64,000 nt of DNA, taken from Cornus controversa (Eukaryota; Streptophyta; Magnoliopsida; Cornales; Cornaceae). Positions 1 through 47,697 of the stretch are shown here, piece by piece. The notes under the pieces are model-generated. The model worked only from the letters and a program-made list of their open reading frames with translations. It made no database searches and had not been told where the DNA came from. The DNA is taken from positions 27,643,797 to 27,707,796 of the forward strand of contig CM048850.1 of NCBI GenBank assembly GCA_026545225.1, written 5' to 3'. Both the position numbers and the translations under genes were made by a program. The stretch's first letter is position 1. Every line of letters starts with the position of its first letter.

Positions 1-606
1 GGAACGAAGTTGAATTTTAGCAGTGCCTACCATCCTTAGACAGATGGTCAGACAGAGGTGGTGAACCGGAGTTTGGGGAACCTTTTGAGGAGTTTGGCAG
101 GAAATAAACCAAAGCAGGGGGATTTGGCATTACCTCAAGCAGAATTTGCTTATAACAGGTCGAAGAACAGATCAACAGGAATGAGCCCATTTGAGATTGT
201 CTGTGGTCAGAACCCGTCTGGGGTGCTTGACTTAGCCCCTATTCCGCGCGTGGGTCGTTTCAATCGCAAGGCAGATGAGATGGCAGAACATCTTCGAGGT
301 ATCCATGAGCAGGTCAAGCTGGCCATTCACGAGAGTAATGCCAAGTACAAGGTTCAGGTTGACAGCCACCGTCGTCAAGTACTTTTTGACGTTGGTGATT
401 TTGTTTGGGCGGTATTAACTCGTGATCGTTTCCCTGTTGGAGAGTATAACAAGTTAAAGGAGCGAAAGATTGGTCCCTGTGATATCCTACAGAAGATCAA
501 TGATCACGCCTACAGACTGCGCCTCCCCAGTCATTTGAGGACTTCTGACGTATTTAATGTGAAACATCTGAGTCCTTGTTTTATGGATTCGATGAAGCTG
601 CTGTAA
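1..606 (+). mobile_element. Array unit, left partial: gypsy integrase C-terminal part
   Basis: This is the right-hand third of one array unit, cut by the window edge. It encodes the end of the integrase core (the glutamate-containing GQTEVVNRSL block) and the C-terminal module with the VGDFVWAVL and RKIGPC segments. The coding part ends at 606, followed by the shared 140-bp spacer. The family is Ty3/gypsy, plus strand. It is a fossil fragment. Confidence 0.85.
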
Positions 607-745
607 ACTCGAGGACGAGTTCTTTCCAACCCGAGGTGACTGATGCAGGAGCATCCGAGTCAGATGATGCTGAGCTGTCAGACGACACGTTGATGGCACT
701 GAAATATCTTGAGTTGGCAGATCAACGTAAAGATGGCAGGAAATC

Positions 746-2332
746 GTGACCTTGTCACTAATTAGGGTGTTTTTGGATGCGCTTCAGTATTTTGGCCATA
801 ACTTTGGCTACAGGTGTCAGAATCGCCTTTATGACCACAATTATTCCACCTATGATCTGGAGTTTTATGCCATCATTCAGTCCCTAAAGCACTGGCGTCA
901 CTACCTAATACAGAGGGAATTCATTCTCCTCACTGGTCATGAGGCCTTGAAATACATCAATGGCCAGCACAAGCTGAGTAGACGACATGCCAAGTGGGTG
1001 GCATACTTGCAAGAGTTCACATTTGCGCTGAGGCACCAGGCAGGGAGTCTGAACCGTGTTGCGGATGCACTGAGCCGTCGTACGTTGCTCCTCACCACCA
1101 TGAGCACCAGAGTTGTAGGTTTCGATACATTCTCTGATATGTATTCTGCAGATCCTTCCTTCGGGAGGATAATTCAGGAGGTAACTGATGGTCAACGCCA
1201 TGATTTTATTTTGCACAATGGTTACCTGTTTCGTGGATTAAAGTTGTGCATCCCAGACTGTTCACTAAGGCAACAGATTATTGGTGAACTTCATAACGAG
1301 GGTCATTTTGGGCGAGACAAGACTTTGGGTCTGATCTCTTCCAACTATTATTGGCCCAAGTTGACCAGTGACGTGGCTCATTATGTGGAGCGTTGTTATG
1401 TATGTCAACGGTCTAAGGGAGTTCTCACTAATGTGGGCCTGTACACACCTTTACCGGTCCCTGAAGCCCCTTGGCTTGATGTCAGTATGGACTTTGTGTT
1501 GGGCTTACCTCGCACCCAACGGGCCGTGGATTCTATTTTCGTTGTGGTCGATCGATTTTCCAAGATGGCCCATTTTGTTACTTGCAGGAAAACAATGGAT
1601 GCTGCTCGGGTCGCCCATCTTTACTTCAAGGAGATTGTGCGTTTACATAGAGTTCCCTAATCCATTACCTCAGATCGTGATACCAAGTTCATGAGTCAAT
1701 TCTGGAAGAGTCTATGGGAGAAACTGGGAACGAAGTTGAATTTTAGCAGTGCCTACCATCCTCAGACAGATGGTCAGACAGAGGTGGTGAACCGGAGTTT
1801 GGGGAACCTTTTGAGGAGTTTGGCAGGAAATAAACCAAAGCAGGGGGATTTGGCATTACCTCAAGCAGAATTTGCTTATAACAGGTCGAAGAACAGATCA
1901 ACAGGAATGAGCCCATTTGAGATTGTCTGTGGTCAGAACCCGTCTGGGGTGCTTGACTTAGCCCCTATTCCGCGCGTGGGTCGTTTCAATCGCAAGGCAG
2001 ATGAGATGGCAGAACATCTTCGAGGTATCCATGAGCAGGTCAAGCTGGCCATTCACGAGAGTAATGCCAAGTACAAGGTTCAGGTTGACAGCCACCGTCG
2101 TCAAGTACTTTTTGACGTTGGTGATTTTGTTTGGGCGGTATTAACTCGTGATCGTTTCCCTGTTGGAGAGTATAACAAGCTAAAGGAGCGAAAGATTGGT
2201 CCCTGTGATATCCTACAGAAGATCAATGATAACGCCTACAGACTGCGCCTCCCCAGTCATTTGAGGACTTCTGACGTATTTAATGTGAAACATCTGAGTC
2301 CTTGTTTTATGGATTCGATGAAGCTGCTGTAA
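746..2332 (+). mobile_element. Array unit: gypsy RNase H / integrase segment, broken
   Basis: This unit has the same domain order as its neighbours. An RNase H C-terminal part (STYDLEFYAI, then DALSRR) is followed by the zinc-binding region (GHFGRDKT, CYVCQRSKG) and the integrase core (SMDFVLGLPRT, then GQTEVVNRSL). The last part is the GPY/F-like end at 2332. The reading frame is broken at about one place, so it is a fossil. Its sequence is nearest to the next unit downstream. Confidence 0.85.
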
Positions 2333-2470
2333 ACTCGAGGACGAGTTCTTTCCAACCCGAGGTGACTGATGCAGGAGCATCCGAGTCAGATGATGCTGAG
2401 CTGTCAGACGACACGTTGATGGCACTGAATATCTTGAGTTGGCAGATCAACGTAAAGATGGCAGGAAATC

Positions 2471-4057
2471 GTGACCTTGTCACTAATTAGGGTGTTTTTG
2501 GATGCGCTTCAGTATTTTGGCCATAACTTTGGCTACAGGTGTCAGAATCGCCTTTATGACCACAATTATTCCACCTATGATCTGGAGTTTTATGCCATCA
2601 TTCAGTCCCTAAAGCACTGGCGTCACTACCTAATACAGAGGGAATTCATTCTCCTCACTGGTCATGAGGCCTTGAAATACATCAATGGCCAGCACAAGCT
2701 GAGTAGACGACATGCCAAGTGGGTGGCATACTTGCAAGAGTTCACATTTGCGCTGAGGCACCAGGCAGGGAGTCTGAACCGTGTTGCGGAGGCACTGAGC
2801 CGTCGTACGTTGCTCCTCACCACCATGAGCACCAGAGTTGTAGGTTTCGATACATTCTCTGATATGTATTCTGCAGATCCTTCCTTCGGGAGGATAATTC
2901 AGGAGGTAACTGATGGTCAACGCCATGATTTTATTTTGCACAATGGTTACCTGTTTCGTGGATTAAAGTTGTGCATCCCAGACTGTTCACTAAGGCAACA
3001 GATTATTGGTGAACTTCATAACGAGGGTCATTTTGGGCGAGACAAGACTTTGGGTCTGATCTCTTCCAACTATTATTGGCCCAAGTTGACCAGTGACGTG
3101 GCTCATTATGTGGAGCGTTGTTATGTGTGTCAACGGTCTAAGGGAGTTCTCACTAATGTGGGCCCGTACACACCTTTACCGGTCCCTGAAGCCCCTTGGC
3201 TTGATGTCAGTATGGACTTTGTGTTGGGCTTACCTCGCACCCAACGGGCCGTGGATTCTATTTTCGTTGTGGTCGATCGATTTTCCAAGATGGCCCATTT
3301 TGTTACTTGCAGGAAAACAATGGATGCTGCTCGGGTCGCCCATCTTTACTTCAAGGAGATTGTGCGTTTACATAGAGTTCCCCAATCCATTACCTCAGAT
3401 CGTGATACCAAGTTCATGAGTCAATTCTGGAAGAGTCTATGGGAGAAACTGGGAACGAAGTTGAATTTTAGCAGTGCCTACCATCCTCAGACAGATGGTC
3501 AGACAGAGGTGGTGAACCGGAGTTTGGGGAACCTTTTGAGGAGTTTGGCAGGAAATAAACCAAAGCAGGGGGATTTGGCATTACCTCAAGCAGAATTTGC
3601 TTATAACAGGTCGAAGAACAGATCAACAGGAATGAGCCCATTTGAGATTGTCTGTGGTCAGAACCCGTCTGGGGTGCTTGACTTAGCCCCTATTCCGCGC
3701 GTGGGTCGTTTCAATCGCAAGGCAGATGAGATGGCAGAACATCTTCGAGGTATCCATGTGCAGGTCAAGCTGGCCATTCACGAGAGTAATGCCAAGTACA
3801 AGGTTCAGGTTGACAGCCACCGTCGTCAAGTACTTTTTGACGTTGGTGATTTTGTTTGGGCGGTATTAACTCGTGATCGTTTCCCTGTTGGAGAGTATAA
3901 CAAGCTAAAGGAGCGAAAGATTGGTCCCTGTGAGATCCTGCAGAAGATCAATGATAACGCCTACAGACTGCGCCTCCCCAGTCATTTGAGGACTTCTGAC
4001 GTCTTTAATGTGAAACATCTGAGTCCTTGTTTTATGGATTCGATGAAGCTGCTGTAA
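2471..4057 (+). CDS. Array unit: open gypsy RNase H / integrase frame (528 codons)
   Basis: This long open frame covers a complete array unit. Approximate residues are: 25-110 RNase H C-terminal part, 165-225 HHCC zinc-binding head (GHFGRDKT, YVCQRSKG), 240-390 integrase catalytic core with the DDE triad in SMDFVLG, SDRDTKF and GQTEVVN, and 440-528 the GPY/F-like module. The frame opens at a GTG rather than an ATG, so it is an internal piece of a former polyprotein, not a gene with its own start. The N-terminal half of pol is absent. It looks whole over this piece. Expression is not suggested by anything visible. Confidence 0.8.
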   Translation: MTLSLIRVFLDALQYFGHNFGYRCQNRLYDHNYSTYDLEFYAIIQSLKHWRHYLIQREFILLTGHEALKYINGQHKLSRRHAKWVAYLQEFTFALRHQAGSLNRVAEALSRRTLLLTTMSTRVVGFDTFSDMYSADPSFGRIIQEVTDGQRHDFILHNGYLFRGLKLCIPDCSLRQQIIGELHNEGHFGRDKTLGLISSNYYWPKLTSDVAHYVERCYVCQRSKGVLTNVGPYTPLPVPEAPWLDVSMDFVLGLPRTQRAVDSIFVVVDRFSKMAHFVTCRKTMDAARVAHLYFKEIVRLHRVPQSITSDRDTKFMSQFWKSLWEKLGTKLNFSSAYHPQTDGQTEVVNRSLGNLLRSLAGNKPKQGDLALPQAEFAYNRSKNRSTGMSPFEIVCGQNPSGVLDLAPIPRVGRFNRKADEMAEHLRGIHVQVKLAIHESNAKYKVQVDSHRRQVLFDVGDFVWAVLTRDRFPVGEYNKLKERKIGPCEILQKINDNAYRLRLPSHLRTSDVFNVKHLSPCFMDSMKLL

Positions 4058-4196
4058 ACTCGAGGACGAGTTCTTTCCAACCCGAGGTGACTGATGCAGG
4101 AGCATCCGAGTCAGATGATGCTGAGCTGTCAGACGACACGTTGATGGCACTGAAATATCTTGAGTTGGCAGATCAACGTAAAGATGGCAGGAAATC

Positions 4197-5783
4197 GTGA
4201 CCTTGTCACTAATTAGGGTGTTTTTGGATGCGCTTCAGTATTTTGGCCATAACTTTGGCTACAGGTGTCAGAATCGCCTTTATGACCACAATTATTCCAC
4301 CTATGATCTGGAGTTTTATGCCATCATTCAGTCCCTAAAGCACTGGCGTCACTACCTAATACAGAGGGAATTCATTCTCCTCACTGATCATGAGGCCTTG
4401 AAATACATCAATGGCCAGCACAAGCTGAGTAGACGACATGCCAAGTGGGTGGCATACTTGTAAGTGTTCACATTTGCGCTGAGGCACCAGGCAGGGAGCC
4501 TGAACCGTGTTGCGGATGCACTGAGCCGTCGTACGTTGCTCCTCACCACCATGAGCACCAGAGTTGTAGGTTTCGATACATTCTCTGATATGTATTCTGC
4601 AGATCCTTCCTTCGGGAGGATAATTCAGGAGGTAACTGATGGTCAACGCCATGATTTTATTTTGCACAATGGTTACCTGTTTCGTGGATTAAAGTTGTGC
4701 ATCCCAGACTGTTCACTAAGGCAACAGATTATTGGTGAACTTCATAACGAGGGTCATTTTGGGCGAGACAAGACTTTGGGTCTGATCTCTTCCAACTATT
4801 ATTGGCCCAAGTTGACCAGTGACGTGGCTCATTATGTGGAGCGTTGTTATGTGTGTCAGCGGTCTAAGGGAGTTCTCACTAATGCGGGCCTGTACACACC
4901 TTTACCGGTCCCTGAAGCCCCTTGGCTTGATGTCAGTATGGACTTTGTGTTGGGCTTACCTCGCACCCAACGGGCCGTGGATTCTATTTTCGTTGTGGTC
5001 GATCGGTTTTCCAAGATGGCCCATTTTGTTACTTGCAGGAAAACAATGGATGTTGCTTGGGTCGCCCATCTTTACTTCAAGGAGATTGTGCGTTTACATG
5101 GAGTTCCCCAATCCATTACCTCAGATCGTGATACCAAGTTCATGAGTCAATTCTGGAAGAGTCTATGGGAGAAACTGGGAACGAAGTTGAATTTTAGCAG
5201 TGCCTACCATCCTCAGACAGATGGTCAGACAGAGGTGGTGAACCGGAGTTTGGGGAACCTTTTGAGCAGTTTGGCAGGAAATAAACCAAAGCAGTGGGAT
5301 TTGGCATTACCTCAAGCAAAATTTGCTTATAACAGGTCGAAGAACAGATCAACAGGAATGAGCCCATTTGAGATTGTCTGTGGTCAGAACCCGTCTGGGG
5401 TGCTTGACTTAGCCCCTATTCCGCGCGTGGGTCGTTTCAATCGCAAGGCAGATGAGATGGCAGAACATCTTCGAGGTATCCATGAGCAGGTCAAGCTGGC
5501 CATTCACGAGAGTAATGCCAAGTACAAGGTTCAGGTTGACAGCCACCGTCGTCAAGTACTTTTTGACGTTGGTGATTTTGTTTGGGCGGTATTAACTCGT
5601 GATCGTTTCCCTGTTGGAGAGTATAACAAGCTAAAGGAGCGAAAGATTGGTCCCTGTGAGATCCTGCAGAAGATCAATGATAACGCCTACAGACTGCGCC
5701 TCCCCAGTCATTTGAGGACTTCTGACGTCTTTAATGTGAAACATCTGAGTCCTTGTTTTATGGATTCGATGAAGCTGCTGTAA
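4197..5783 (+). mobile_element. Array unit: gypsy RNase H / integrase segment, broken
   Basis: This is the next unit of the array with the same domain order, ending at 5783. It shares with the following two units a set of variants in the RNase H part (the LLTDHEALK form, and valine in QVFTF), so it belongs to a local subgroup. The frame has about one break, so it is a fossil. The integrase DDE blocks are all recognisable. Confidence 0.85.
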
Positions 5784-5922
5784 ACTCGAGGACGAGTTCT
5801 TTCCAACCCGAGGTGACTGATGCAGGAGCATCCGAGTCAGATGATGCTGAGCTGTCAGACGACACGTTGATGGCACTGAAATATCTTGAGTTGGCAGATC
5901 AACGTAAAGATGGCAGGAAATC

Positions 5923-7509
5923 GTGACCTTGTCACTAATTAGGGTGTTTTTGGATGCGCTTCAGTATTTTGGCCATAACTTTGGCTACAGGTGTCAGAAT
6001 CGCCTTTATGACCACAATTATTCCACCTATGATCTGGAGTTTTATGCCATCATTCAGTCCCTAAAGCACTGGCGTCACTACCTAATACAGAGGGAATTCA
6101 TTCTCCTCACTGATCATGAGGCCTTGAAATACATCAATGGCCAGCACAAGCTGAGTAGACGACATGCCAAGTGGGTGGCATACTTGCAAGTGTTCACATT
6201 TGCGCTGAGGCACCAGGCAGGGAGTCTGAACCGTGTTGCGGATGCACTGAGCCGTCGTACATTGCTCCTCACCACCATGAGCACCAGAGTTGTAGGTTTC
6301 GATACATTCTCTGATATGTATTCTGCAGATCCTTCCTTCGGGAGGATAATTCAGGAGGTAACTGATGGTCAACGCCATGATTTTATTTTGCACAATGGTT
6401 ACCTGTTTCGTGGATTAAAGTTGTGCATCCCAGACTGTTCACTAAGGCAACAGATTATTGGTGAACTTCATAACGAGGGTCATTTTGGGCGAGACAAGAC
6501 TTTGGGTCTGATCTCTTCCAACTATTATTGGCCCAAGTTGACCAGTGACGTGGCTCATTATGTGGAGCGTTGTTATGTGTGTCAGCGGTCTAAGGGAGTT
6601 CTCACTAATGCGGGCCTGTACACACCTTTACCGGTCCCTGAAGCCCCTTGGCTTGATGTCAGTATGGACTTTGTGTTGGGCTTACCTCGCACCCAACGGG
6701 CCGTGGATTCTATTTTCGTTGTGGTCGATCGGTTTTCCAAGATGGCCCATTTTGTTACTTGCAGGAAAACAATGGATGTTGCTTGGGTCGCCCATCTTTA
6801 CTTCAAGGAGATTGTGCGTTTACATGGAGTTCCCCAATCCATTACCTCAGATCGTGATACCAAGTTCATGAGTCAATTCTGGAAGAGTCTATGGGAGAAA
6901 CTGGGAACGAAGTTGAATTTTAGCAGTGCCTACCATCCTCAGACAGATGGTCAGACAGAGGTGGTGAACCGGAGTTTGGGGAACCTTTTGAGCAGTTTGG
7001 CAGGAAATAAACCAAAGCAGTGGGATTTGGCATTACCTCAAGCAAAATTTGCTTATAACAGGTCGAAGAACAGATCAACAGGAATGAGCCCATTTGAGAT
7101 TGTCTGTGGTCAGAACCCGTCTGGGGTGCTTGACTTAGCCCCTATTCCGCGCGTGGGTCGTTTCAATCGCAAGGCAGATGAGATGGCAGAACATCTTCGA
7201 GGTATCCATGAGCAGGTCAAGCTGGCCATTCACGAGAGTAATGCCAAGTACAAGGTTCAGGTTGACAGCCACCGTCGTCAAGTACTTTTTGACGTTGGTG
7301 ATTTTGTTTGGGCGGTATTAACTCGTGATCGTTTCCCTGTTGGAGAGTATAACAAGCTAAAGGAGCGAAAGATTGGTCCCTGTGAGATCCTGCAGAAGAT
7401 CAATGATAACGCCTACAGACTGCGCCTCCCCAGTCATTTGAGGACTTCTGACGTCTTTAATGTGAAACATCTGAGTCCTTGTTTTATGGATTCGATGAAG
7501 CTGCTGTAA
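5923..7509 (+). CDS. Array unit: open gypsy RNase H / integrase frame (528 codons)
   Basis: The frame is uninterrupted across the whole unit, with RNase H tail, zinc head, DDE core and C-terminal module in the usual order. It is nearly identical to the preceding unit, including variants such as VAWVAHLYF in the core and QAKFAYN near the C-terminal side. Such near-identity of adjacent units is what unequal crossing-over produces. It starts at a GTG and has no promoter or LTR of its own. It is a fossil piece that looks whole within its limits. Confidence 0.8.
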   Translation: MTLSLIRVFLDALQYFGHNFGYRCQNRLYDHNYSTYDLEFYAIIQSLKHWRHYLIQREFILLTDHEALKYINGQHKLSRRHAKWVAYLQVFTFALRHQAGSLNRVADALSRRTLLLTTMSTRVVGFDTFSDMYSADPSFGRIIQEVTDGQRHDFILHNGYLFRGLKLCIPDCSLRQQIIGELHNEGHFGRDKTLGLISSNYYWPKLTSDVAHYVERCYVCQRSKGVLTNAGLYTPLPVPEAPWLDVSMDFVLGLPRTQRAVDSIFVVVDRFSKMAHFVTCRKTMDVAWVAHLYFKEIVRLHGVPQSITSDRDTKFMSQFWKSLWEKLGTKLNFSSAYHPQTDGQTEVVNRSLGNLLSSLAGNKPKQWDLALPQAKFAYNRSKNRSTGMSPFEIVCGQNPSGVLDLAPIPRVGRFNRKADEMAEHLRGIHEQVKLAIHESNAKYKVQVDSHRRQVLFDVGDFVWAVLTRDRFPVGEYNKLKERKIGPCEILQKINDNAYRLRLPSHLRTSDVFNVKHLSPCFMDSMKLL

Positions 7510-7648
7510 ACTCGAGGACGAGTTCTTTCCAACCCGAGGTGACTGATGCAGGAGCATCCGAGTCAGATGATGCTGAGCTGTCAGACGACACGTTGATGGC
7601 ACTGAAATATCTTGAGTTGGCAGATCAACGTAAAGATGGCAGGAAATC

Positions 7649-9235
7649 GTGACCTTGTCACTAATTAGGGTGTTTTTGGATGCGCTTCAGTATTTTGGCC
7701 ATAACTTTGGCTACAGGTGTCAGAATCGCCTTTATGACCACAATTATTCCACCTATGATCTGGAGTTTTATGCCATCATTCAGTCCCTAAAGCACTGGCG
7801 TCACTACCTAATACAGAGGGAATTCATTCTCCTCACTGATCATGAGGCCTTGAAATACATCAATGGCCAGCACAAGCTGAGTAGACGACATGCCAAGTGG
7901 GTGGCATACTTGCAAGTGTTCACATTTGCGCTGAGGCACCAGGCAGGGAGTCTGAACCGTGTTGCGGATGCACTGAGCCGTCGTACATTGCTCCTCACCA
8001 CCATGAGCACCAGAGTTGTAGGTTTCGATACATTCTCTGATATGTATTCTGCAGATCCTTCCTTCGGGAGGATAATTCAGGAGGTAACTGATGGTCAACG
8101 CCATGATTTTATTTTGCACAATGGTTACCTGTTTCGTGGATTAAAGTTGTGCATCCCAGACTGTTCACTAAGGCAACAGATTATTGGTGAACTTCATAAC
8201 GAGGGTCATTTTGGGCGAGACAAGACTTTGGGTCTGATCTCTTCCAACTATTATTGGCCCAAGTTGACCAGTGACGTGGCTCATTATGTGGAGCGTTGTT
8301 ATGTGTGTCAGCGGTCTAAGGGAGTTCTCACTAATGCGGGCCTGTACACACCTTTACCGGTCCCTGAAGCCCCTTGGCTTGATGTCAGTATGGACTTTGT
8401 GTTGGGCTTACCTCGCACCCAACGGGCCGTGGATTCTATTTTCGTTGTGGTCGATCGGTTTTCCAAGATGGCCCATTTTGTTACTTGCAGGAAAACAATG
8501 GATGTTGCTCGGGTCGCCCATCTTTACTTCAAGGAGATTGTGCGTTTACATGGAGTTCCCCAATCCATTACCTCAGATCGTGATACCAAGTTCATGAGTC
8601 AATTCTGGAAGAGTCTATGGGAGAAACTGGGAACGAAGTTGAATTTTAGCAGTGCCTACCATCCTCAGACAGATGGTCAGACAGAGGTGGTGAACCGGAG
8701 TTTGGGGAACCTTTTGAGAAGTTTGGCAGGAAATAAACCAAAGCAGTGGGATTTGGCATTACCTCAAGCAGAATTTGCTTATAACAGGTCGACGAACAGA
8801 TCAACAGGAATGAGCCCATTTGAGATTGTCTATGGTCAGAACCCGTCTGGGGTGCTTGACTTAGCCCCTATTCCGCGCGTGGGTCGTTTCAATCGCAAGG
8901 CAGATGAGATGGCAGAACATCTTCGAGGTATCCATGAGCAGGTCAAGCTGGCCATTCACGAGAGTAATGCCAAGTACAAGGTTCAGGTTGACAGCCACCG
9001 TCGTCAAGTACTTTTTGACGTTGGTGATTTTGTTTGGGCGGTATTAACTCGTGATCGTTTCCCTGTTGGAGAGTATAACAAGCTAAAGGAGCGAAAGATT
9101 GGTCCCTGTGATATCCTGCAGAAGATCAATGATAACGCCTACAGACTGCGCCTCCCCAGTCATTTGAGGACTTCTGACGTCTTTAATGTGAAACATCTGA
9201 GTCCTTGTTTTATGGATTCGATGAAGCTGCTGTAA
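7649..9235 (+). CDS. Array unit: open gypsy RNase H / integrase frame (528 codons)
   Basis: The frame is uninterrupted, with the same domains in the same order as the other units. Its 5' half matches the subgroup of the two preceding units (LLTDHEALK, QVFTF). Its 3' half carries different variants (QAEFAYN, IVYGQNPSG) shared in part with the next unit. It therefore looks like a mosaic, as expected when units exchange sequence. It opens at a GTG and lacks the N-terminal half of pol. Confidence 0.8.
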   Translation: MTLSLIRVFLDALQYFGHNFGYRCQNRLYDHNYSTYDLEFYAIIQSLKHWRHYLIQREFILLTDHEALKYINGQHKLSRRHAKWVAYLQVFTFALRHQAGSLNRVADALSRRTLLLTTMSTRVVGFDTFSDMYSADPSFGRIIQEVTDGQRHDFILHNGYLFRGLKLCIPDCSLRQQIIGELHNEGHFGRDKTLGLISSNYYWPKLTSDVAHYVERCYVCQRSKGVLTNAGLYTPLPVPEAPWLDVSMDFVLGLPRTQRAVDSIFVVVDRFSKMAHFVTCRKTMDVARVAHLYFKEIVRLHGVPQSITSDRDTKFMSQFWKSLWEKLGTKLNFSSAYHPQTDGQTEVVNRSLGNLLRSLAGNKPKQWDLALPQAEFAYNRSTNRSTGMSPFEIVYGQNPSGVLDLAPIPRVGRFNRKADEMAEHLRGIHEQVKLAIHESNAKYKVQVDSHRRQVLFDVGDFVWAVLTRDRFPVGEYNKLKERKIGPCDILQKINDNAYRLRLPSHLRTSDVFNVKHLSPCFMDSMKLL

Positions 9236-9374
9236 ACTCGAGGACGAGTTCTTTCCAACCCGAGGTGACTGATGCAGGAGCATCCGAGTCAGATGATGCT
9301 GAGCTGTCAGACGACACGTTGATGGCACCGAAATATCTTGAGTTGGCAGATCAACGTAAAGATGGCAGGAAATC

Positions 9375-10961
9375 GTGACCTTGTCACTACTTAGGGTGTT
9401 TTTGGATGCGCTTCAGTATTTTGGCCATAACTTTGGCTACAGGTGTCAGAATCGCCTTTATGACCATAATTATTCCACCTATGATCTGGAGTTTTATGCC
9501 ATCATTCAGTCCCTAAAGCACAGGCGTCACTACCTAATACAGAGGGAATTCATTCTCCTCACTGGTCATGAGGCCTTGAAATACATCAATGGCCAGCACA
9601 AGCTGAGTAGACGACATGCCAAGTGGGTGGCATACTTGCAAGAGTTCACATTTGCGCTGAGGCACCAGGCAGGGAGTCTGAACCGTGTTGCGGATGCACT
9701 GAGCCGTCGTACGTTGCTCCTCACCACCATGAGCACCAGAGTTGTAGGTTTCGATACATTCTCTGATATGTATTCTGCATATCCTTCCTTCGGGAGGATA
9801 ATTCAGGAGGTAACTGATGGTCAACGCCATGATTTTATTTTGCACAATGGTTTCCTGTTTCGTGGATTAAAGTTGTGCATCCCAGACTGTTCACTAAGGC
9901 AACAGATTATTGGTGAACTTCATAACGAGGGTCATTTTGGGCGAGACAAGACTTTGGGTCTGATCTCTTCCAACTATTATTGGCCCAAGTTGACCAGTGA
10001 CGTGGCTCATTATGTGGAGCGTTGTTATGTGTGTCAGCGGTCTAAGGGAGTTCTCACTAATGCGGGCCTGTACACACCTTTACCGGTCCCTGAAGCCCCT
10101 TGGCTTGATGTCAGTATGGACTTTCTGTTGGGCTTACCTCGTACCCAACGAGCCGTGGATTCTATTTTCGTTGTGGTAGATCGGTTTTCCAAGATGGCCC
10201 ATTTTGTTGCTTGCAGGAAAACAATGGATGCTGCTCGGGTCGCCCATCTTTACTTCAAGGAGATTGTGCGTTTACATGGAGTTCCCCAATCCATTACCTC
10301 AGATCGTGATACCAAGTTCATGAGTCAATTCTGGAAGAGTCTATGGGAGAAACTGGGAACGAAGTTGAATTTTAGCAGTGCCTACCATCCTCAGACAGAT
10401 GGTCAGACAGAGGTGGTGAACCGGAGTTTGGGGAACCTTTTGAGGAGTTTGGCAGGAAATAAACCAAAGCAGTGGGATTTGGCATTACCTCAAGCAGAAT
10501 TTTCTTATAACAGGTCGAAGAGCAGATCAACAGGAATGAGCCCATTTGAGATTGTCTATGGTCAGAACCCGTCTGGGGTGCTTGACTTAGCCCCTATTCT
10601 GCGCATGGTTCGTTTCAATCGCAAGGCAGATGAGATGGCAGAACATCTTCGAGGTATCCATGTGCAAGTCAAGCTGGCCATTCACGAGAGTAATGCCAAG
10701 TACAAGGTTCAGGTTGACAGCCACCGTCGTCAAGTACTTTTTGACGTTGGTGATTTTGTTTGGGCGGTATTAACTCGTGATCGTTTCCCTGTTGGAGAGT
10801 ATAACAAGCTAAAGGAGCGAAAGATTGGTCCCTGTGAGATCCTGCAGAAGATCAATGATAACGCCTACAGACTGCGCCTCCCCAGTCATTTGAGGACTTC
10901 TGACGTCTTTAATGTGAAACATCTGAGTCCTTGTTTTATGGATTCGATGAAGCTGCTGTAA
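9375..10961 (+). CDS. Array unit: last complete gypsy RNase H / integrase frame (528 codons)
   Basis: This is the last full unit and the most divergent of the array, with private changes such as SLKHRRHYL and PILRMVRFN. Edge units of tandem arrays are usually the least homogenised, so this fits a true array end. RNase H tail, zinc head, DDE core and C-terminal module are present. The frame is open and starts at a GTG. Confidence 0.8.
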   Translation: MTLSLLRVFLDALQYFGHNFGYRCQNRLYDHNYSTYDLEFYAIIQSLKHRRHYLIQREFILLTGHEALKYINGQHKLSRRHAKWVAYLQEFTFALRHQAGSLNRVADALSRRTLLLTTMSTRVVGFDTFSDMYSAYPSFGRIIQEVTDGQRHDFILHNGFLFRGLKLCIPDCSLRQQIIGELHNEGHFGRDKTLGLISSNYYWPKLTSDVAHYVERCYVCQRSKGVLTNAGLYTPLPVPEAPWLDVSMDFLLGLPRTQRAVDSIFVVVDRFSKMAHFVACRKTMDAARVAHLYFKEIVRLHGVPQSITSDRDTKFMSQFWKSLWEKLGTKLNFSSAYHPQTDGQTEVVNRSLGNLLRSLAGNKPKQWDLALPQAEFSYNRSKSRSTGMSPFEIVYGQNPSGVLDLAPILRMVRFNRKADEMAEHLRGIHVQVKLAIHESNAKYKVQVDSHRRQVLFDVGDFVWAVLTRDRFPVGEYNKLKERKIGPCEILQKINDNAYRLRLPSHLRTSDVFNVKHLSPCFMDSMKLL

Positions 10962-11100
10962 ACTCGAGGACGAGTTCTTTCCAACCCGAGGTGACTGATG
11001 CAGGAGCATCCGAGTCAGATGATGCTGAGCTGTCAGACGACACGTTGATGGCACTGAAATATCTTGAGTTGGCAGATCAACGTAAAGATGGCAGGAAATC

Positions 11101-11511
11101 GTGACCTTGTCACTAATTAGGGTGTTTTTGGATGCGCTTCAGTATTTTGGCCATAACTTTGGCTACAGGTGTCAGAATTGCCTTTTGAAGAATCTCACAA
11201 TACCTGGGAACCTCGATAATATAGTTCAACCATTCAGTCCAGTCCACAGTTGCACCTATGTGGGACTCATATTCCGTAAAGCTGAAAGGGTAATCTCCGA
11301 GTTCCAATCGCAGATGTGGAATAGACTCAGGAATAACAGCAAAGTTTTTTAGGATATCATCTGTACTTAGTATCACAAGGTCGTCAGACACCTCCATATC
11401 AGGTATGAAATCCTCCATGGAACTCCAGAAGTAGTCGTGCTTCTTTTCAAAGAAGGGCGCCTTACACCACTCAGAAGAAGGAGGAACTAGGGGAACCACT
11501 CCATTAGTCAA
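11101..11511 (-). CDS. Unrecognised reading frame, possibly a plant-mobile-domain-like fragment, running into the array edge
   Basis: A minus-strand frame of 132 codons (11,113-11,511) begins with ATG and contains segments such as GDYPFSFTEYE, VDWTEWL and VPRYCEIL. These recall the N-terminal side of plant mobile domain (aminotransferase-like) proteins, a domain carried by some plant transposons and host genes, but the match is from memory and weak. Its last third lies inside the final partial repeat unit. The tandem unit therefore contains about 75 bp of this neighbouring sequence in reverse orientation relative to pol. The breakpoint is near 11,180. It may be a gene fragment or chance. No downstream catalytic domain is seen. 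Confidence 0.35.
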
Positions 11512-12430
11512 AGTCAGTCATTTTTTCTTAGTCATGGCAGTACACAAGATAAAGAGGTGTTCGAGAAGTTAACAGGGTAAAGAAAGCAAGGGATAAGAAA
11601 CAAGGAAGGAAAAAGAGGTAAAAAAGGAACAAAGTGGAGAAAATACCCAAAAAAATAGTAACATATATATGAAGCATTGAAGGCGCAGGAACCGAATGTA
11701 CACGAGCAGTTACTCGGCAGTCGAACAGCCACTTGGACCAGTCGCATATGGCACTCTACCCGTGAAGGGATAATGGACTCCAAAACAGGCACTCGAAAGA
11801 GAAGAGATTTCATGATTAAAGAGGGAAGCATTGCACTAATAAGGGAGGACAAGATTAAAAATGTTGTAAACAATACTTTGCCAAAGTGGTGCAAGCAGTT
11901 ATGAAGGAACAGAGAGAGCGCCTGGGTCAATCGCAAGTGGTACCTTACCCATAAAGGGACTAAAGACTCTGAGGCATTTATTCGAACAAGAAAGAGGCTT
12001 TATAGCTAAAAAGAATTGCCAAGGAAGAGCAGGGAAGACAAGGCAACAAGAACAATCGCCAAGGAAGCCGAACAGACCTTTTGGACAAATGGCACTAGGT
12101 AACCCATCCGCAAAGGGACTATAAATGCAGGAATAAATGAGCATGGAGGTAGAAAGCCTACGAAGAAAAGAAGAAAGGTTTCTAGTTACTATTTTAAAGA
12201 AATTGAATTTCTTTATATTATTAGTTTATTTTATTAATTCATGTGAAATGCCTTATTTCTATAAATTATCATTGTAATAAATTATCATTGTAGGTGAGTT
12301 GCTTTTCTTTTATATGCATCTTATCATTTTATGTGGATTACTTAGGTTTTATAGATTTAAATCATTTCATGTAAATTGCTCTGTTTAATTATTTATTTTT
12401 ATCATTTTATGTGAATTGTTATTGATTATG
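11512..12430. other. No recognisable gene; unclassified repeat-like sequence
   Basis: This stretch is purine-rich on the plus strand up to about 12,180, with two loosely similar segments (about 11,740 and 11,920) containing 'aaagggac' or 'gaaggga' motifs. It then becomes AT-rich. A TATA-like 'ctataaatg' occurs near 12,119 without a supported gene. Short frames on both strands here are not convincing. Confidence 0.4.
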
Positions 12431-17754: not shown

Positions 17755-18312
17755 TAAAGGCCCTATAAAGAGGTGTGTCCCCATAGAGTCGTGTCCCCGT
17801 AGTTGGGCTGGGCCCCGTAGGGCTGTGTGCTCGTAAGGGTAGGGCTATGCCTTCGTAGGGCTATTTTAACAATGTTCTCGGAATTCATACATTCCGTCTT
17901 TTTCATTAAAGGCCCTCCTTGGAGGTGTATCCCCGTAGGGTTGTGCCCACATAAGGTTGTGTCCCTGTAAGGCTATTTTAACAATGTTCTCAGAATTCAT
18001 CTATCCCGCCCTTTTCATTAAAGGCCCTCCTTGGAGGTGTATCCCTGTAGGGTTGTGCCCACGTAGGGCTGTGCCCCCGTAGGACTATTTTAACAATGTA
18101 CTCGGAATTCATCCATCCCGCCCTTTTCATTAAAGGCCTTCCTTAGAGGTGTATCCCCATAAGGTTGTGCCCACGTAGTGTGCCCCCGTAGGGCTATTTT
18201 AACAATGTTCTCGGAATTCATCCATCCTGCCCTTTTCACTAAAGGCCCTCCTTGGAGGTGTATCCCCTTAGCGTTGTGCCCACGTAGAACTGTGCCCCTA
18301 TAGCACTATTTA
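17755..18312. repeat. 112-bp tandem minisatellite inside the gypsy derivative
   Basis: The motif 'attaaaggccctcctt' recurs at about 17,905, 18,017, 18,129 and 18,239, giving a period of 112, 112 and 109 bp, with a weaker first copy near 17,755. Each unit also holds 'aacaatgttctc' followed by 'gaattcat', and repeated 'cccgtagggttgtgcccac' blocks. Such arrays are common in the non-coding 3' part of Tat-lineage gypsy elements. Confidence 0.85.
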
Positions 18313-33362: not shown

Positions 33363-33616
33363 TAATACGTTTGAAGATATAAGAGAATATGGCATACTTT
33401 TCTATTGATCAATATCGGTATAAATATACATTGTTCATGACACTTAATTACCTATAATTAAGGTAGACCAAAACAATCTCCTCAAACAAGGGAATAGGTA
33501 AACAGTCTCTTATAATAAAGGTACAGAAAGTCAAATAAAATCACAAACGAAATATCTACAATTAAATCAAATATTATCTACAATTAAATCAAATATTTTG
33601 AGGATTATCTCTAACA
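33363..33616 (-). repeat. 3' LTR of the copia element
   Basis: This is the 254-bp partner of 37,910-38,163, running from 'taatacgtttgaagatat' to 'attatctctaaca'. The minus-strand LTR starts TGTTAGAGATAAT. Confidence 0.95.
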
Positions 33617-35294: not shown

Positions 35295-36140
35295 TCATTG
35301 GAATTTATGGTGGTAGCAGGTGATTGAGGAAAATGGATGGTGAGGTGAGGGAAGGTGGGTTTGGAGGTATCGGAGTGTTCGAGGGTGCATGTGGAGCAGG
35401 TGGTGTCGATACATCGCTTGAGGGCATAGAAAGAGACCGTTCAGTAGATGGCGTGGAGAGTGACCGAGGCTGAGTGTTGGATGATGGAAGATGTATAATT
35501 GGCGGAATCCAGGTGGAAACAGTTTGTGGTTGAGGACGAGGTAAGTGGTTGTGAAGAGAAGAGAAAGGAAGAACAGACTCAACAAACTTGACATGATGAG
35601 AGATAAACATTTTGGAGGTAGAAGGATCATAACAAAAGTAGGCACTCTGAGTAAGAGAATAGCCAAGAAAGACACAGGGAGTGGAGCAAGATTCGAGTTT
35701 GTGAGAAGAATGAGGCCTAAGCCAGGGGTAGCATAGGCAACCAAAGACCCTAAGTTTAGAGTAGTTTGGAGGAATATTAAAAATCTTTTCAAAAGGTGAA
35801 GAGAGATTTAGTGTTGGAGTGGGCATACGATTTATGAGGTAGACAACAGTGGTAAAGGCATGAGACCAAAAAGTTAAAGGAAGGGAAGCATAAGAGAGAA
35901 GTGTGAGACCAGTTTCTACTATGTGACAGTGATGTTTTTCAGAAAAACCATTATGTTCTGGTGTGTGAGTTGGAGTTGTAAGGTGGGAAATACCATGAGT
36001 GGCTAAGTAGGAAGTGAGACCAATATATTCTCCACCATTGTCAGAATAAAGGGTTATGATTTTTTGGTTAAAGTAGTTTTCAACAATAGTTTTGAATCTT
36101 ATAAAGACATCATGAACATCCGATTTGTGCTTGATTGGAT
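35295..36140 (-). CDS. Copia integrase C-terminal part and linker (fossil)
   Basis: The landmarks are KLRVFGCLCYPWLRP, CVFLGYS and YDPSTSKMFISHHVKF, typical of the copia integrase C-terminal side, followed by a Pro/Ser/His-rich linker before reverse transcriptase. Confidence 0.85.
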
Positions 36141-36144
36141 AAAT

Positions 36145-36732
36145 TTATATATATTTTGTATAGTGGTCAACAAAGAGTACATAGTATTTAAAGCCATCAT
36201 GGGAGAGGACGGGAGAAGTCCACACATCAGAAAAGAGGATTTCAAAAGGTTTGGTTGAGACAATAAAAGTAGTAGAAAATGGTAATTTGTGACTTTTATA
36301 GCAGTGACATGCATTATATGAAAAATTGGGCAAAATGGAAGACGAAAAATCTAATTTATACTGAGACGCAACATGTTTTAGAATAGAAAGAACGGGATGA
36401 CCTAATCTATGATGCCACTCGGACGAAGTGGTCTTGACACTAGAGAAAGCAAGTAAAGGTGATTTCACGGATGAGGAAGCCGGCCGCTCATACACTCCAT
36501 CCTTCGTTTGGCCCGTTAAGAGGATTGCCCCCGTGCAAAATTCCTTCACAAGAAAAGAAGCTGGTAAGAATTCAATGGATACGTTATTAGTGGTGCAAAA
36601 TTGAGAAATAGATATTAAATTCCCTTTCATGCTAGGAACACAGAGAACATTAGATAAGGTAAAGGAAGTGGTAGGGGTAGTGAAGGAAGTGGAACCGGTA
36701 TGTGTAATGGGTAGACCCGTGCCATCACCCAA
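36145..36732 (-). CDS. Copia protease-proximal, GAG-pre-integrase and integrase core start (fossil)
   Basis: The frame of 195 codons reads GDGTGLPITHTGS, NVLCVPSMKGNLISISQF and WHHRLGHPVLSILKHV (the HH of the integrase zinc head), then FEILFSDVWTSPVLS and YYVLFVDHYTKYI, the start of the DDE core. The order is that of Ty1/copia pol. Confidence 0.88.
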   Translation of the reverse strand: MGDGTGLPITHTGSTSFTTPTTSFTLSNVLCVPSMKGNLISISQFCTTNNVSIEFLPASFLVKEFCTGAILLTGQTKDGVYERPASSSVKSPLLAFSSVKTTSSEWHHRLGHPVLSILKHVASQYKLDFSSSILPNFSYNACHCYKSHKLPFSTTFIVSTKPFEILFSDVWTSPVLSHDGFKYYVLFVDHYTKYI

Positions 36733-36779
36733 TCATAACATCGTTTGTGCCTGTATATGGTGCATGAAGAGATAAGTTG

Positions 36780-37942
36780 CTCAGGTCAGCAGTGACATGA
36801 TGAGAAGCACCACTATCAAGGAGCCATAATGGAGTGGTGGATGCTGAAGTGGCCGCAAAATGAGCCTGAGGTTACCACGGTGTAGTAGAACGAGTAGGCA
36901 GAGATTGAGGTGAAGACGACAAGTCATTCGGTATAAGGCGAAATGAAGGGCACCGTTTGGCAGTATGACCCTGAATACCACAAATCTGATAATAGCCAAG
37001 ATATGGCCATAGTGGTGGTCGAGCACCCCAAGGCTAATTCGGGCTGGGAGAAGGGCGCAAGTTGTTGGTGGAAGATAGATGCCATCCGGTGTTGGTGGAG
37101 CCAAAAGGTGGCGACAGTGTGTGAGGCGACAATGGACGCCACCTAGAGGTACGAGAGCCTGTATTGATGCGTTGAGCGGGATTTACAGAAGCTGGTAGAT
37201 AAGACTGATTAGGCTTCTTCTCTTGCAAATGTGCTTCAAAAGTGAGTAGTTTTTCATGAAGTTCATCAAAAGTGAGGGGTGTATCACGAGCGTGAACGAC
37301 ATTGACAAGGTATTTGTAATCACTACCAAAACCATCAAGAATTTTTTCCGTGAGATCATCGTCATCCATAGGGACTCCAAGAAGAGTAAGTTCATCGGCT
37401 CGGGCTTTGACAAATTGTAGAAAATTAGTAACACTCTGAGAACCTTTGGTGGGATTTTTGAGGTGACCTTTAACTTGTTTGATCCAGCCTTGAGATGGCT
37501 TAGCATATGTATTAGCAAGAATCATCTAAGCTTGATGAGAGGTGGTTGCACGAGCAATAAAAGGAATGATAGTAGGAGTAAGTGAGCCAATGATAGTATT
37601 GAGTATAAGTTGATCCTGACGAATCCAAAAGGTATAAGCCAGGTTCAATTGAGTTGTTTGATTTGCAGTGATAGTGTCGGGTGGTCAAGTTTTGGTACCG
37701 TCAATATAGCCAAGGAGATCATAACCAACAAAAAGGGTTTGAAATTGGAGTTTCCATGAGGTATAATTGGTGGATGATAGTTTAAGAGGGACTTGGGCAG
37801 AAACGCTGATGGCAATGAGTGCTTGGTTTGCATCATTTGCATTGGGGATTGTGGGAGTAGTAATAGCAGTGGTGGGAGAGCTTTGAGTGGTCATGGTGCT
37901 TTGATACCATAATACGTTTGAAGATATGAGAGAATATGGCAT
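36780..37942 (-). CDS. Copia gag region (fossil)
   Basis: Near the 5' LTR the minus strand encodes gag: VPLKLSSTNYTSWKLQFQT at the N-terminal side, then GWIKQVKGHLKNPTKGSQSV, FLQFVKARADELTLLG and VNVVHARDTPLTFDELHE. A zinc-knuckle-like GIQGHTAKRCP follows near 36,950-36,990. The coding is interrupted in a few places. Confidence 0.85.
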
Positions 37943-38163
37943 ACTTTTCTATTGATCAATATCGGTATAAATATACATTGTTCATGACACTTAATTACCT
38001 AATATTAAAGTAAACCAAAACAATCTCCTCAAATAAGGAAATAGCTAAACAGTCTCCTATAATAAAGGTACAGAAAGTCAAATAAAATCACAAACGAAAT
38101 ATCTACAATTAAATCAAATATTATCTACAATTAAATCAAATATTTTGAGGATTATCTCTAACA
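37910..38163 (-). repeat. 5' LTR of the copia element
   Basis: This 254-bp LTR has about 10 differences from its partner at 33,363-33,616 by eye. The primer site TGGTATCAAAGCACC (minus strand) adjoins its end at about 37,895-37,909. Confidence 0.95.
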
Positions 38164-41104: not shown

Positions 41105-44083
41105 TGTTATTTCCTAATAAATACTTAGAATTACTGCTAGTATTTTATAAAATATCTTCACAAAATTTCGCGCATGAAGTGGCCAGTCTCATACACAAAA
41201 CCTGAGAAATATTAACAACTCATAGCAACAAGCATAGAGTACAACAAGTAGAATGAAATAAAATTTAAAAGCAGGAAAGAAAGTCCCTCTAAATTAATAT
41301 AAACATTAAATAACTGAGTACGTGTCTCGTATTACAATGTGGAAGTCCCGTTACTCAAGAACCCCTTATCCACGAAGACCAAGAGTTTTTAATTCTAAAT
41401 TAATACCAACAATCAAAGTCTCAAAAGTTCATAGTCTAACTCTTGAAGAAGATAAGTTCCTACCCTGTAATCGATGAGAGAGAATATATCCGCCACAACC
41501 AAACCCTAAAACTCTATCCTAGAGGGGGAATCTGCCTGGTACCTAAAATCAACAAAGTGGGTTAAACCCACGAACAAGTCATATCTACTACATCCCAATC
41601 AGAGAAACAATATACATACCCTCAGTATGAGGGACACAAGAAAAAATATATATATATATATCATACAAGATATTCCTTATCCAGTTTATGTTTTCAAACC
41701 AACAGCCATTCTTTACAATGTTTCATTAAAACCCTTATCATAAAGTAATGAACACATTCTTTAAGTTTAGAAAACTGTAACATATGCATATATTTTATCA
41801 AGTTAAAGCAATCCTGACATGCTTCTGGCAATCCTTATGTGCCTCTTTAATTTAGATACCTTAATAGGTATTGGCAATCCTGACATGCCTAGCAATCCTT
41901 ACATGCCTCGTTTAATTTTAGATACCTTAATAGGTATTGGCAATCCTCACATGCCTGATAATCCTTACATGCCTCCTTAAATTTGAGATACCTTAATAGG
42001 TATTGGCAATCCTGACATGCCTTGGCAATCCTTACATGCCTTCTTTAATTTTAGATACCTTAATAGGTATTGGCAATCCTGACATGCCTTGGCAATCCTT
42101 ACATGCCTTCTTTAATTTTAGATACCTTAATAGGTATTGGCAATCCTGATATGCCTTAGAAATCTTTACATGCCTCCTTCCCAATATGAAACATAAAATA
42201 AAAACAAGGTGCAACGTGATTTTAATTTGCACAAACAAAGTGATTTAAGTTATCCGATATGCAATAATCATCATAAGACAATTCATTCACAGGTAAACTA
42301 TAATCAAGTATTTCATGGATATTGATAACCTCAAAGGAAAATACATTCAAGTAAATCAAATAACACAATTATCCACTTTAGAAGTAAACACCCAATCAAA
42401 CCTCCAATTTATCTAAACCTTCGAGGGAGTCAAAACCTAACTCGAATTTAGGTTCTCGGGCCTATTCTGTTCCTAAAACCGTGTTTAAACATTCTGAATT
42501 TTTTTTGATATTCTCGGGAATTTAAAAGAAATATTTTAGAATAAAAGACAAATAAAACATAGTCAGAGGCATACTTATACAACCGATACAACCTCAAAAG
42601 AAATTCCTTTTCACTTGAAATTTAAAACGCAGGTGCATTTTTATCCTGTAAAGTTACCTGAATATTTTTAGAATTTTTTGGAATTTTAAATATTTTCTAA
42701 AACAAAAGAAGGTAAAAAACTCAATTTTTAAACACTTTAAAAATCAATTTAACTACAAGGAGAGCTCATTTCGACATGAAAATTTAAACCCAATTTCATC
42801 TAACCTCCAAAAAGTTACAATAACAATCTGGGAATTTTCAAAATTTTTTAAGTATTTTCTAAAATGAAAGAAGGCCAAAAACCCAATTTTTAGACACTTT
42901 AAAAATCAATTGAACTACAAAGAGAGTTCATTTCAACATGAAAATTTAAACCCAAGTTCATCTAACCTCCAAAAAGTTACAGTAAAAATTTGGAAATTTT
43001 CAGAAATTTTTAAGTATTTTCTAAAAAATGATTTTTTTCAAAATTTCAACCCCCAGCCTGCGCGCACTGTTCATGTGCGCTGACATCCCCTTTCTGACCA
43101 TTTCCCAACCTCCGTTCGACCTAAATTTTATATCAATATGTTTCTCTCTTCGTAACCTATCTATTGGTACCAAAATCCCTATCAAAAATGCCCCCAAAAC
43201 GAAAACTCCCAAATCAGAATTTCTAGGGTTCTTCAACAAATTTAAAAAAAATTAAATTTAAATTCCTCCATGATCCATTCCCAAATGTTCAAGGGTAAAT
43301 TTAATCCAGCAAGAACCACTCAACAAACCACAAATTACTACAATAAACGTCCACGAATTTAAACTTACCATATCATTATATTCATCATATACATGTATGC
43401 ATATATCTATATGTGTGTAAATAAATAATCAACACCAATCCTCAATTGCCAATTTAATTTTAGAACCATCATAATTCACAGAAAAAAATTAGATTTATAA
43501 AAATCAATTTTATACCAAAATGAAAGATTTAAAAAAAAAATGCAACAAACAATTTACATATTACAAGATTTAGTCTATGTATACAGATTCAAAGGGGAAG
43601 AGAAGAGTAGAACTTACCTCTTCGATGATTCAAAATCCGTCCACACGATCGCTCTTTCTCTCTGTCCTCTCTTTTGTCTACACTCTGAGTTTCTGTGCGT
43701 AAGCTAACGGCAGAAACCCTAATCCCCTATTTTCTTTTCTTTTATTATTATTTTTTTTCTTAAGAAAACTAATTAAGACTAAATAAAATTAAAAGGAAAA
43801 ATTAATAAAACAAATCCTAGCCCATCAAAAATAAGTACACCTAGCCCAACCATTCCAGCCCAACTCAACCATGATTCCTCCCTAGCCCAATCCAAAATTA
43901 AAATAAAGAAAACACAAAGATCTAGTCCAAATAAAATAAAATAAAAATAAAGTAAACTACACCACAATATTTAAAGCACTCAAAGAATTTAATCCAACTA
44001 ATAAAGCAATTCAATTTAACTAATAAAATAAATAAATCATTTAAATTAAAATTAAAAGACCTCCAAAATTACGGGGTATTACA
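41105..44083 (-). repeat. 3' LTR of the Tekay/Del-like gypsy element (2,979 bp)
   Basis: On the minus strand it begins TGTAATACCCCGTAATTTTG directly after the polypurine tract and ends TTAGGAAATAACA. Typical Del-type LTR landmarks are 'taccaggcagattccccc' and 'gggctagggaggaat'. It contains the 66-bp tandem repeat at 41,815-42,180. LTRs of 2.4-4.5 kb are normal for this lineage. Confidence 0.8.
41815..42180. repeat. About five copies of a 66-70-bp tandem repeat in the gypsy LTR
   Basis: The unit 'taccttaataggtattggca' followed by 'atcctgacatgcc' and 'atccttacatgcc' recurs at about 41,858, 41,925, 41,990, 42,057 and 42,124. The paralogous block at 59,085-59,370 has about four copies, so copy number has changed since the duplication. 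Confidence 0.85.
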
Positions 44084-46932: not shown

Positions 46933-47171
46933 CATGCCCCGGTAATCCACCTCACAGGTGTGGAGAAGGGGATGTGCTTATATGTAGTGTGTTCTTCTCA
47001 AATGGTATGAGGCCTTTTGAGGTAAAATCTAAGAGAAAAATCGTACGGGCTTAGGCCCAAAGCGAACAATATCATACCATGTGTTGGAGCGGGGTATTAC
47101 AGTTGGTATCAGAGCCTGACCCTAGCCGAAAGTGTGCCGACGAAGATGTCGGGCCTCATAAGGGGGTGGAT

Positions 47172-47400
47172 TGTAATCACCCGCGAGGTGGATTACCGGG
47201 GCATGTTAGGATTACTGCCGGAACATGTCAGGATTGCTCAATCCCACATCGCCTTGGTGTGGAAAAGGGGATGTGCTTACATATAGTGCGTTCTCTTCAA
47301 ATGGTTTTAGGCCTTTTGGGGTAAAATCCAAGAGCAAAATTGTGCAGGCTTAGGCCCAAAGTAGACAATATCATACCATGTGTTAGAGTGGGGTATTACA
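47172..47400 (+). repeat. Middle LTR of the tandem miniature element (229 bp)
   Basis: It begins TGTAATCACCCGCGAGG and ends GGGGTATTACA, and it is followed at once by the primer site at 47,403-47,415. It is shared between the left and right units. Confidence 0.88.
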
Positions 47401-47469
47401 ATTGGTATCAGAGCCTAAACCCAGCTGGAAGTGTGCCGACGAGGACGTCGGGCCTCATAGGGGGCGGAT

Positions 47470-47697
47470 TGTAATCACCCGCGAAGTGGATTACCAGGGC
47501 ATGTCAGGATTGCTGCGGACCATGTCAGGATTGCTCAATCCCACATCGCCTGGGTGTGGAGAAGGAGATGTGCATATATGTAGTGTATTTTCTTCAAATG
47601 GTATGAGACATTTCGGGGTAAAATCCAATAGCAAAACTGTGCGGGCTTAGGCCTAAAACGGACAATATCATACCATGTGTTGGAATGGGGTATTACA
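47470..47697 (+). repeat. Right LTR of the tandem miniature element (228 bp)
   Basis: It has the same start and end as the middle LTR, about 90-93% identical by eye, and is preceded by the polypurine run agggggcgg. Confidence 0.88.

Follow-up and report, generated by a model that had tools for sequence, protein, structure and literature searches.

Satellite origins are often inferred from old, homogenised arrays, and several systems point to retrotransposons as a starting material. Parts of pol are listed among satellite sources in a review (PMC12628747), and for the maize arrays CRM1TR and CRM4TR intrastrand deletions have been proposed to leave pieces of long terminal repeats (LTRs) as direct repeats, with growth by gene conversion (Sharma et al. 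2013, PMC3648361). LTR-sharing tandems consist of alternating LTRs and internal regions with flanking target site duplications (TSDs; Morales-Diaz et al. 2025, PMC11899658), the Ogre-derived satellites of Lathyrus sativus expanded from short tandem arrays already present within the elements (Vondrak et al., Plant J., PMC7004042), and Cassandra, a group of small elements without protein-coding domains, forms tandems with at least 12 repeated LTR copies (PMC7215508). Here we describe a tandem array of a Ty3/gypsy fragment in Cornus controversa (GCA_026545225.1, 771.7 Mb in 61 contigs), the right end of which falls in a window of 64,000 nucleotides, i.e., the whole stretch at positions 27,643,797-27,707,796 of contig CM048850.1 (C6). 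The best explanation of the array, and one that we consider probable, is a single deleted element whose 198-bp LTR direct repeats drove amplification and block exchange. The original prediction for this window had proposed that a piece of a retrotransposon was amplified into a satellite-like array, and this is supported as the start of a local satellite.

The search for array units was extended over the 240 kb to the left of the window, making up an examined region of 304 kb. The array spans C6:27,526,474 to about 27,654,981, that is 128.5 kb, or about 121 kb without a retrotransposon inserted in it, and its left end corresponds to window coordinate -117322. It comprises 69 units of 1,726 bp that are complete or nearly so and one more that is split by the insertion, all head-to-tail on the + strand, and BLAST in the 304-kb region gave 98.1-100% identity to the reference unit at 2564..4289 (+ strand), which is made up of a pol 3' part (2564-4091) and LTR positions 1-198 (4092-4289). 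The window holds about 6.5 of the 70 units at 1..11185 (+ strand), with a period of 1,726 bp and 98.6-100% identity to the reference unit, just as many head-to-tail copies as had been predicted. As for the extent given with that prediction, its right end point stands at the last LTR-matching stretch, which ends at 11185 (GCCTTT, 11180-11185; the BLAST match reaches 11188), while on the left the window cuts the array, 117 kb of which lies beyond it. The units are missing from the Tandem Repeats Finder list because the maximum period of the latter is 500.

The tandem array is real. Inflation of one or a few units by the assembler is hardly credible: near-identical blocks, such as two of 12 units with 23 differences in total, are indeed hard to assemble, but 291 columns are polymorphic among the 69 units, an LTR retrotransposon with its own TSD lies inside the array, the 240 kb to the left of the window contain no N, and the flanks have paralogs with an empty site. 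Copying of one unit in the assembly is likewise countered by the unit-specific variants and by the insertion with its TSD.

Each unit carries the 3' part of RNase H and the integrase of a Ty3/gypsy pol, thus running from mid-RNase H up to where the internal region ends, followed by positions 1-198 of the 637-bp LTR of the parent element. In the window, these LTR pieces (all on the + strand) occur at the unit ends at 641..838, 4092..4289, 5818..6015 and 7544..7741, as given by unit frame and LTR match, at 2366..2563, where the passage from LTR to pol falls between 2563 and 2564 with an AATT microhomology, and at 9270..9467, whose junction was placed by a genome-wide junction pattern search; a final truncated piece at 10996..11185, its start taken from the unit frame, forms the right end of the array. 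The array is therefore not LTR-free: with LTR positions 1-198 as the last 198 bp of the unit and an LTR terminus at the left edge, the idea of an internal coding piece amplified without LTRs has to be replaced by that of a unit joining the 3' end of pol to the start of the LTR. The reported absence of gag and reverse transcriptase (RT) was confirmed, since that stretch of the parent's internal region which runs from the primer site behind the 5' LTR into mid-pol, and includes gag, protease and RT, had no match in the 304 kb at E 1e-3, and neither had LTR positions 201-637 in the same search. An open frame of 528 amino acids at 2471..4057 (+ strand) encompasses the 3' part of RNase H, the integrase zinc-binding and core domains and an SH3-like C-terminal domain (PF17917, profile 45-105 of 105; PF17921; PF00665; PF24626), its first 31 codons being contributed by the LTR piece with which the unit before it ends.

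The parent element was characterized from dispersed copies. A loose first genome scan counted 1,553 candidate places, 10 of which were scored, and eight dispersed copies (L001-L008) formed the comparison set; positions 1-1726 of the unit align in one piece, once per copy, in all eight. The dispersed copy at C6:42.04 Mb is a 5.6-kb element with 637-bp LTRs that are 98.7% identical and the TSD CAAGT, and the motif TGGTATCAGAGC, which we take to be the tRNA-Met primer site, adjoins the end of its 5' LTR. Pfam domains for gag, aspartyl protease, RT, RNase H and integrase follow each other in the Ty3/gypsy order in one dispersed copy (L013), with two open frames, one for gag, aspartyl protease and part of RT, the other for RT, RNase H and integrase. 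The dispersed copies hence display the domain order, LTRs and presumed primer-site motif of a Ty3/gypsy parent.

The left array edge is the exact 5' LTR terminus TGATGCAG, directly after GCATGACTCAG. The locus lies within a cluster of segmental duplicates at C6 27.13-27.94 Mb, in which copies of the right flank are spaced about 40-217 kb apart; window positions 11178-56816 share for the most part 95-98% identity, in long stretches broken by indels, with a left neighbour at -205774..-154851. On the left side seven paralogs were compared over 500 bases each, weaker left-flank matches of about 250 bp being left out, and the empty target site is kept in six of them (the left neighbour and L042-L046), which run uninterrupted into TTAGCAGTTT, continuing at the insertion point into TTAGCAG; the preceding sequence is GACTCAG in four, GACTTAG in one and GAATCAG in one. 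The alignment of the seventh (L047) is lost before the insertion site. Unit DNA was found in none of these seven stretches, nor in eight right-side paralogs examined over 901 bases each, and the presence of the array at the same site in other segmental copies was thus rejected. The history of the array would have started with the insertion of a Ty3/gypsy element of about 5.6 kb with 637-bp LTRs into one copy of the duplicated region, a step established by the exact LTR terminus at the left edge together with the empty sites in the paralogs.

At the array junction, the LTR ends in GACCAC and is followed by pol at AATTATTCC. In the dispersed copies GACCAC is followed in the LTR by AATTCGG, and AATTATTCC is preceded in pol by GAAGAAA, AATT being common to both sites and standing directly after both breakpoints in eight of eight copies. 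When a 24-base junction pattern was searched with up to two mismatches on both strands of the whole 772-Mb genome, 70 matches were obtained, all inside the array (C6 27,526,666-27,653,281), with none on the opposite strand and none for a reversed control. Moreover, three differences from the eight dispersed copies, one of them a 1-bp deletion, are common to all 69 units (a looser count gives four columns fixed in the units versus the dispersed copies). Since the 70 junctions occur only here and the differences are shared, the array goes back to one founder. This founder would derive from a deletion at the common AATT, from LTR position 198 to mid-RNase H, by which the element lost what remained of its 5' LTR along with primer site, gag, protease and RT; the end product of the deletion is visible in the units, and the event itself may have taken place after integration or during reverse transcription. 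The resulting intermediate would have consisted of LTR positions 1-198, the pol end and an LTR, carrying the same 198 bp as a direct repeat on either side, and unequal exchange or repair between these repeats may have duplicated and then expanded the 1,726-bp unit, the LTR part of which is likely to be the repeat that started the amplification.

A different route would be a tandem that formed in reverse transcription, through template switches along a shortened read-through RNA, and that integrated already as a short tandem. The left edge does resemble an integration end, and for the LTR-element tandems of rice a single insertion is preferred in the abstract of PMC11899658, both routes being left open in its Discussion; however, a unit without LTR positions 201-637 and the primer site would produce an RNA not easily reverse-transcribed, and growth to 70 units would still require chromosomal exchange, so that we deem this route quite unlikely.

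Local homogenisation or block exchange has taken place in the array. Units differ from each other by 1.50% on average (range 0-44 differences), units 1, 2, 4 or 16 positions apart are more similar than in any of 2,000 shuffled unit orders, and derived variants are shared by neighbouring units in 155 of 566 cases versus 67.9 expected at random. The 12-unit duplication mentioned above relates units 30-41 to units 46-57, and inside these blocks units 33-35 recur as 37-39 (3, 1 and 1 differences) and units 49-51 as 53-55 (0, 0 and 0 differences). All four combinations were present in 707 of 5,565 variant pairs, as exchange predicts, to which recurrent mutation can add. Such patterns show that block exchanges, among them the 12-unit duplication and 4-unit repeats, reshaped the array.

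The tempo of growth bears on another candidate origin, namely rolling-circle copying of an LTR-pol circle with the concatemer reinserted in one step. This would account for the identical junction in every unit, and it agrees with an excess of rare variants (Tajima's D -2.04, a descriptive value as the units are not a random-mating sample). In simple simulations (12-15 runs per setting), a burst without later exchange was rejected, with 955 singletons predicted versus 131-141 seen, while fast growth with about 80-120 subsequent block duplications, growth over a quarter to a half of the time with fewer, and continuous growth with none fitted alike; a near-instant array with the first of these additions would thus give similar counts. 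Continuous growth came nearer to the fixed variants (2.9 vs. 4 seen) and to the derived variants per unit (18.8 vs. 18.0), fast growth to the common variants (4.4 with 120 duplications vs. 8.2 for continuous growth; 4 seen), and under these models burst and gradual growth do not appear distinguishable from the variant spectrum. On the other hand, an exact LTR-terminus edge at a target site intact in the paralogs is unexpected for a reinserted concatemer, unless the circle recombined with a resident copy, and we judge the rolling circle unlikely.

On the right, the array breaks off within the LTR and its TSD has been lost. The LTR passes into the flank at GCCTTT (11180..11185, + strand), common to the LTR and to the flank of four of the eight right-side paralogs, and the right flank at 11186..12191 (+ strand) matches six C6 paralogs at 97-98% and two at 92%. 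In the left neighbour the flank after GCCTTT sits about 7.1 kb beyond the target site, and the spacing from left to right flank in seven paralogs is about 3.5, 7.1, 7.1, 9.5, 12.9, 16.7 and 16.7 kb (for the right-side copy at 27,129,850 no matching left flank is listed, and it stands outside this comparison). A further deletion may have taken the remaining 3' LTR together with the flank next to it, some 7.1 kb if measured on one paralog, a size that is approximate because the flank spacing varies among the seven.

Several observations weigh against the origin from a single deleted element as set out here. With the right TSD lost, the evidence for integration comes from the left side only. The exact right break is uncertain, because GCCTTT occurs in the flanks of the left neighbour, L038, L040 and L041 and the other four differ, and because the final unit reads TGCC like the flank, where other listed unit ends read CGCC or stop short. 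A single copy of the fusion of LTR 198 to pol was not found outside the array, which contains all 70 junctions of the genome, and for this reason the two-repeat intermediate is one that we infer. Within the array, a distance of 12 units shows no excess similarity (325 of 2,000 shuffles), and the simulations fit several tempos, continuous growth doing roughly as well as a burst on the numbers of variants. Finally, the copy number is an assembly count and could be in error, most of all where the two 12-unit blocks are nearly the same.

The unrelated LTR retrotransposon inserted into the array is complete-looking (7,522 bp, -12257..-4736, TSD AGTAT), and its LTRs are 99.09% identical, with 13 differences in 1,435 sites. 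At substitution rates of 0.7-1.3e-8 per site and year, as in herbaceous plants, its insertion dates back roughly 0.35-0.65 million years, which supplies a minimum age for the surrounding part of the array; under a slower clock the date would move further back. The 528-amino-acid frame is kept in 39 of the 69 units, and pN/pS is 0.68 among the array units versus 0.15 among the eight dispersed copies, gapped and stop codons being excluded, as were codons carrying two or more differences (2,359 such comparisons within the array). Coding constraint on the array is thus weak, and both values run counter to selection on the open frames, a possibility that was considered and rejected. C-to-T type variants affect 36 of 122 CG, 38 of 170 CHG and 59 of 522 CHH positions, taking the commonest letter rather than an outgroup for direction, a pattern compatible with past CG and CHG methylation. 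Because of the pN/pS ratio and the excess of CG and CHG transitions, the array would now be drifting as silent, heterochromatin-like DNA rather than as genes. It is very unlikely that it acts as a self-made silencing locus for its parent family, its 70 heterochromatic copies of integrase and LTR start feeding small RNAs that maintain methylation of the dispersed copies; if true, it would represent a plant analogue of the piRNA-cluster trap, built from one deletion and LTR-driven amplification.

Other repeats are present in the window. Tandem Repeats Finder reported a 67-bp repeat in two nearly identical arrays 17 kb apart (41808-42179 and 59073-59382), 4.1 copies of 112 bp at 17839-18311 and 2.5 copies of 299 bp at 46957-47697. 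Two identical copies of a 22-bp tandem pair, 4.5 kb from each other (33553-33597 and 38100-38144), perhaps mark the LTRs of one element; between them lie - strand open frames at 35295-37525 that look copia-like on reading of the frames.

With regard to the known systems, the array was called uncommon in the original prediction, which is partly true, as satellites from LTR, gag or pol parts have already been described (PMC12628747, PMC3648361). A new satellite family had also been suggested: a local satellite start was found, and the junction search returned a single locus in the genome rather than the several loci or chromosomes of a genome-wide family, so that incipient satellite is the strongest admissible term. 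Like CRM1TR and CRM4TR, the array stems from one Ty3/gypsy family, with a monomer of an LTR part and the adjacent internal part; a proposed origin of LTR direct repeats by deletion, growth by local exchange and dating by LTR retrotransposon insertions are likewise shared, and the two CRM1TR loci about 1.4 Mb apart on one chromosome can be counted as a further likeness (PMC3648361). The CRM monomer, however, joins LTR and untranslated region (UTR), whereas ours joins coding pol and LTR start, the deletion lying on the opposite side; in CRM, no short direct repeat could be identified that would account for a UTR-LTR junction made in a single step, whereas the array has a 4-bp microhomology; its unit of 1,726 bp compares with mean lengths of 696 nt at one CRM1TR locus and 819 nt at the other; and, unlike CRM1TR and CRM4TR, it keeps an LTR terminus and empty-site paralogs (PMC3648361). 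The alternation of internal and LTR parts from an LTR terminus beside target DNA recalls the LTR-sharing tandems (PMC11899658), but only 198 bp of LTR and the pol 3' part are repeated here, in 70 units and with the right TSD lost, and neither complete LTRs between units nor TSDs on both sides were found. Origin from retrotransposon-derived repeats is common to the Ogre satellites (PMC7004042), although in our case the unit occurs once per dispersed copy (n = 8) and amplification is likely to have started from the 198-bp LTR pieces. For the tandem LTR elements of Cassandra, LTR-LTR recombination and unequal crossing-over have been proposed (PMC7215508). The array, with its head-to-tail monomer, its fusion of LTR and internal region of one element by deletion and its block exchange, is best filed with the CRM1TR/CRM4TR-type satellites, because the CRM model fits it and pol-derived satellites are listed in the review cited above. 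It shows coding pol sequence brought into an array by a short LTR repeat, and it allows the model of an internal deletion leaving LTR direct repeats, followed by unequal exchange, to be put to the test in related accessions. Events of this kind are known, and the array is an unusually well preserved case, many steps being still readable in the DNA of one locus, from the empty site and the end of the inserted element, through the founding deletion at a microhomology, to the right break and the later block duplications.

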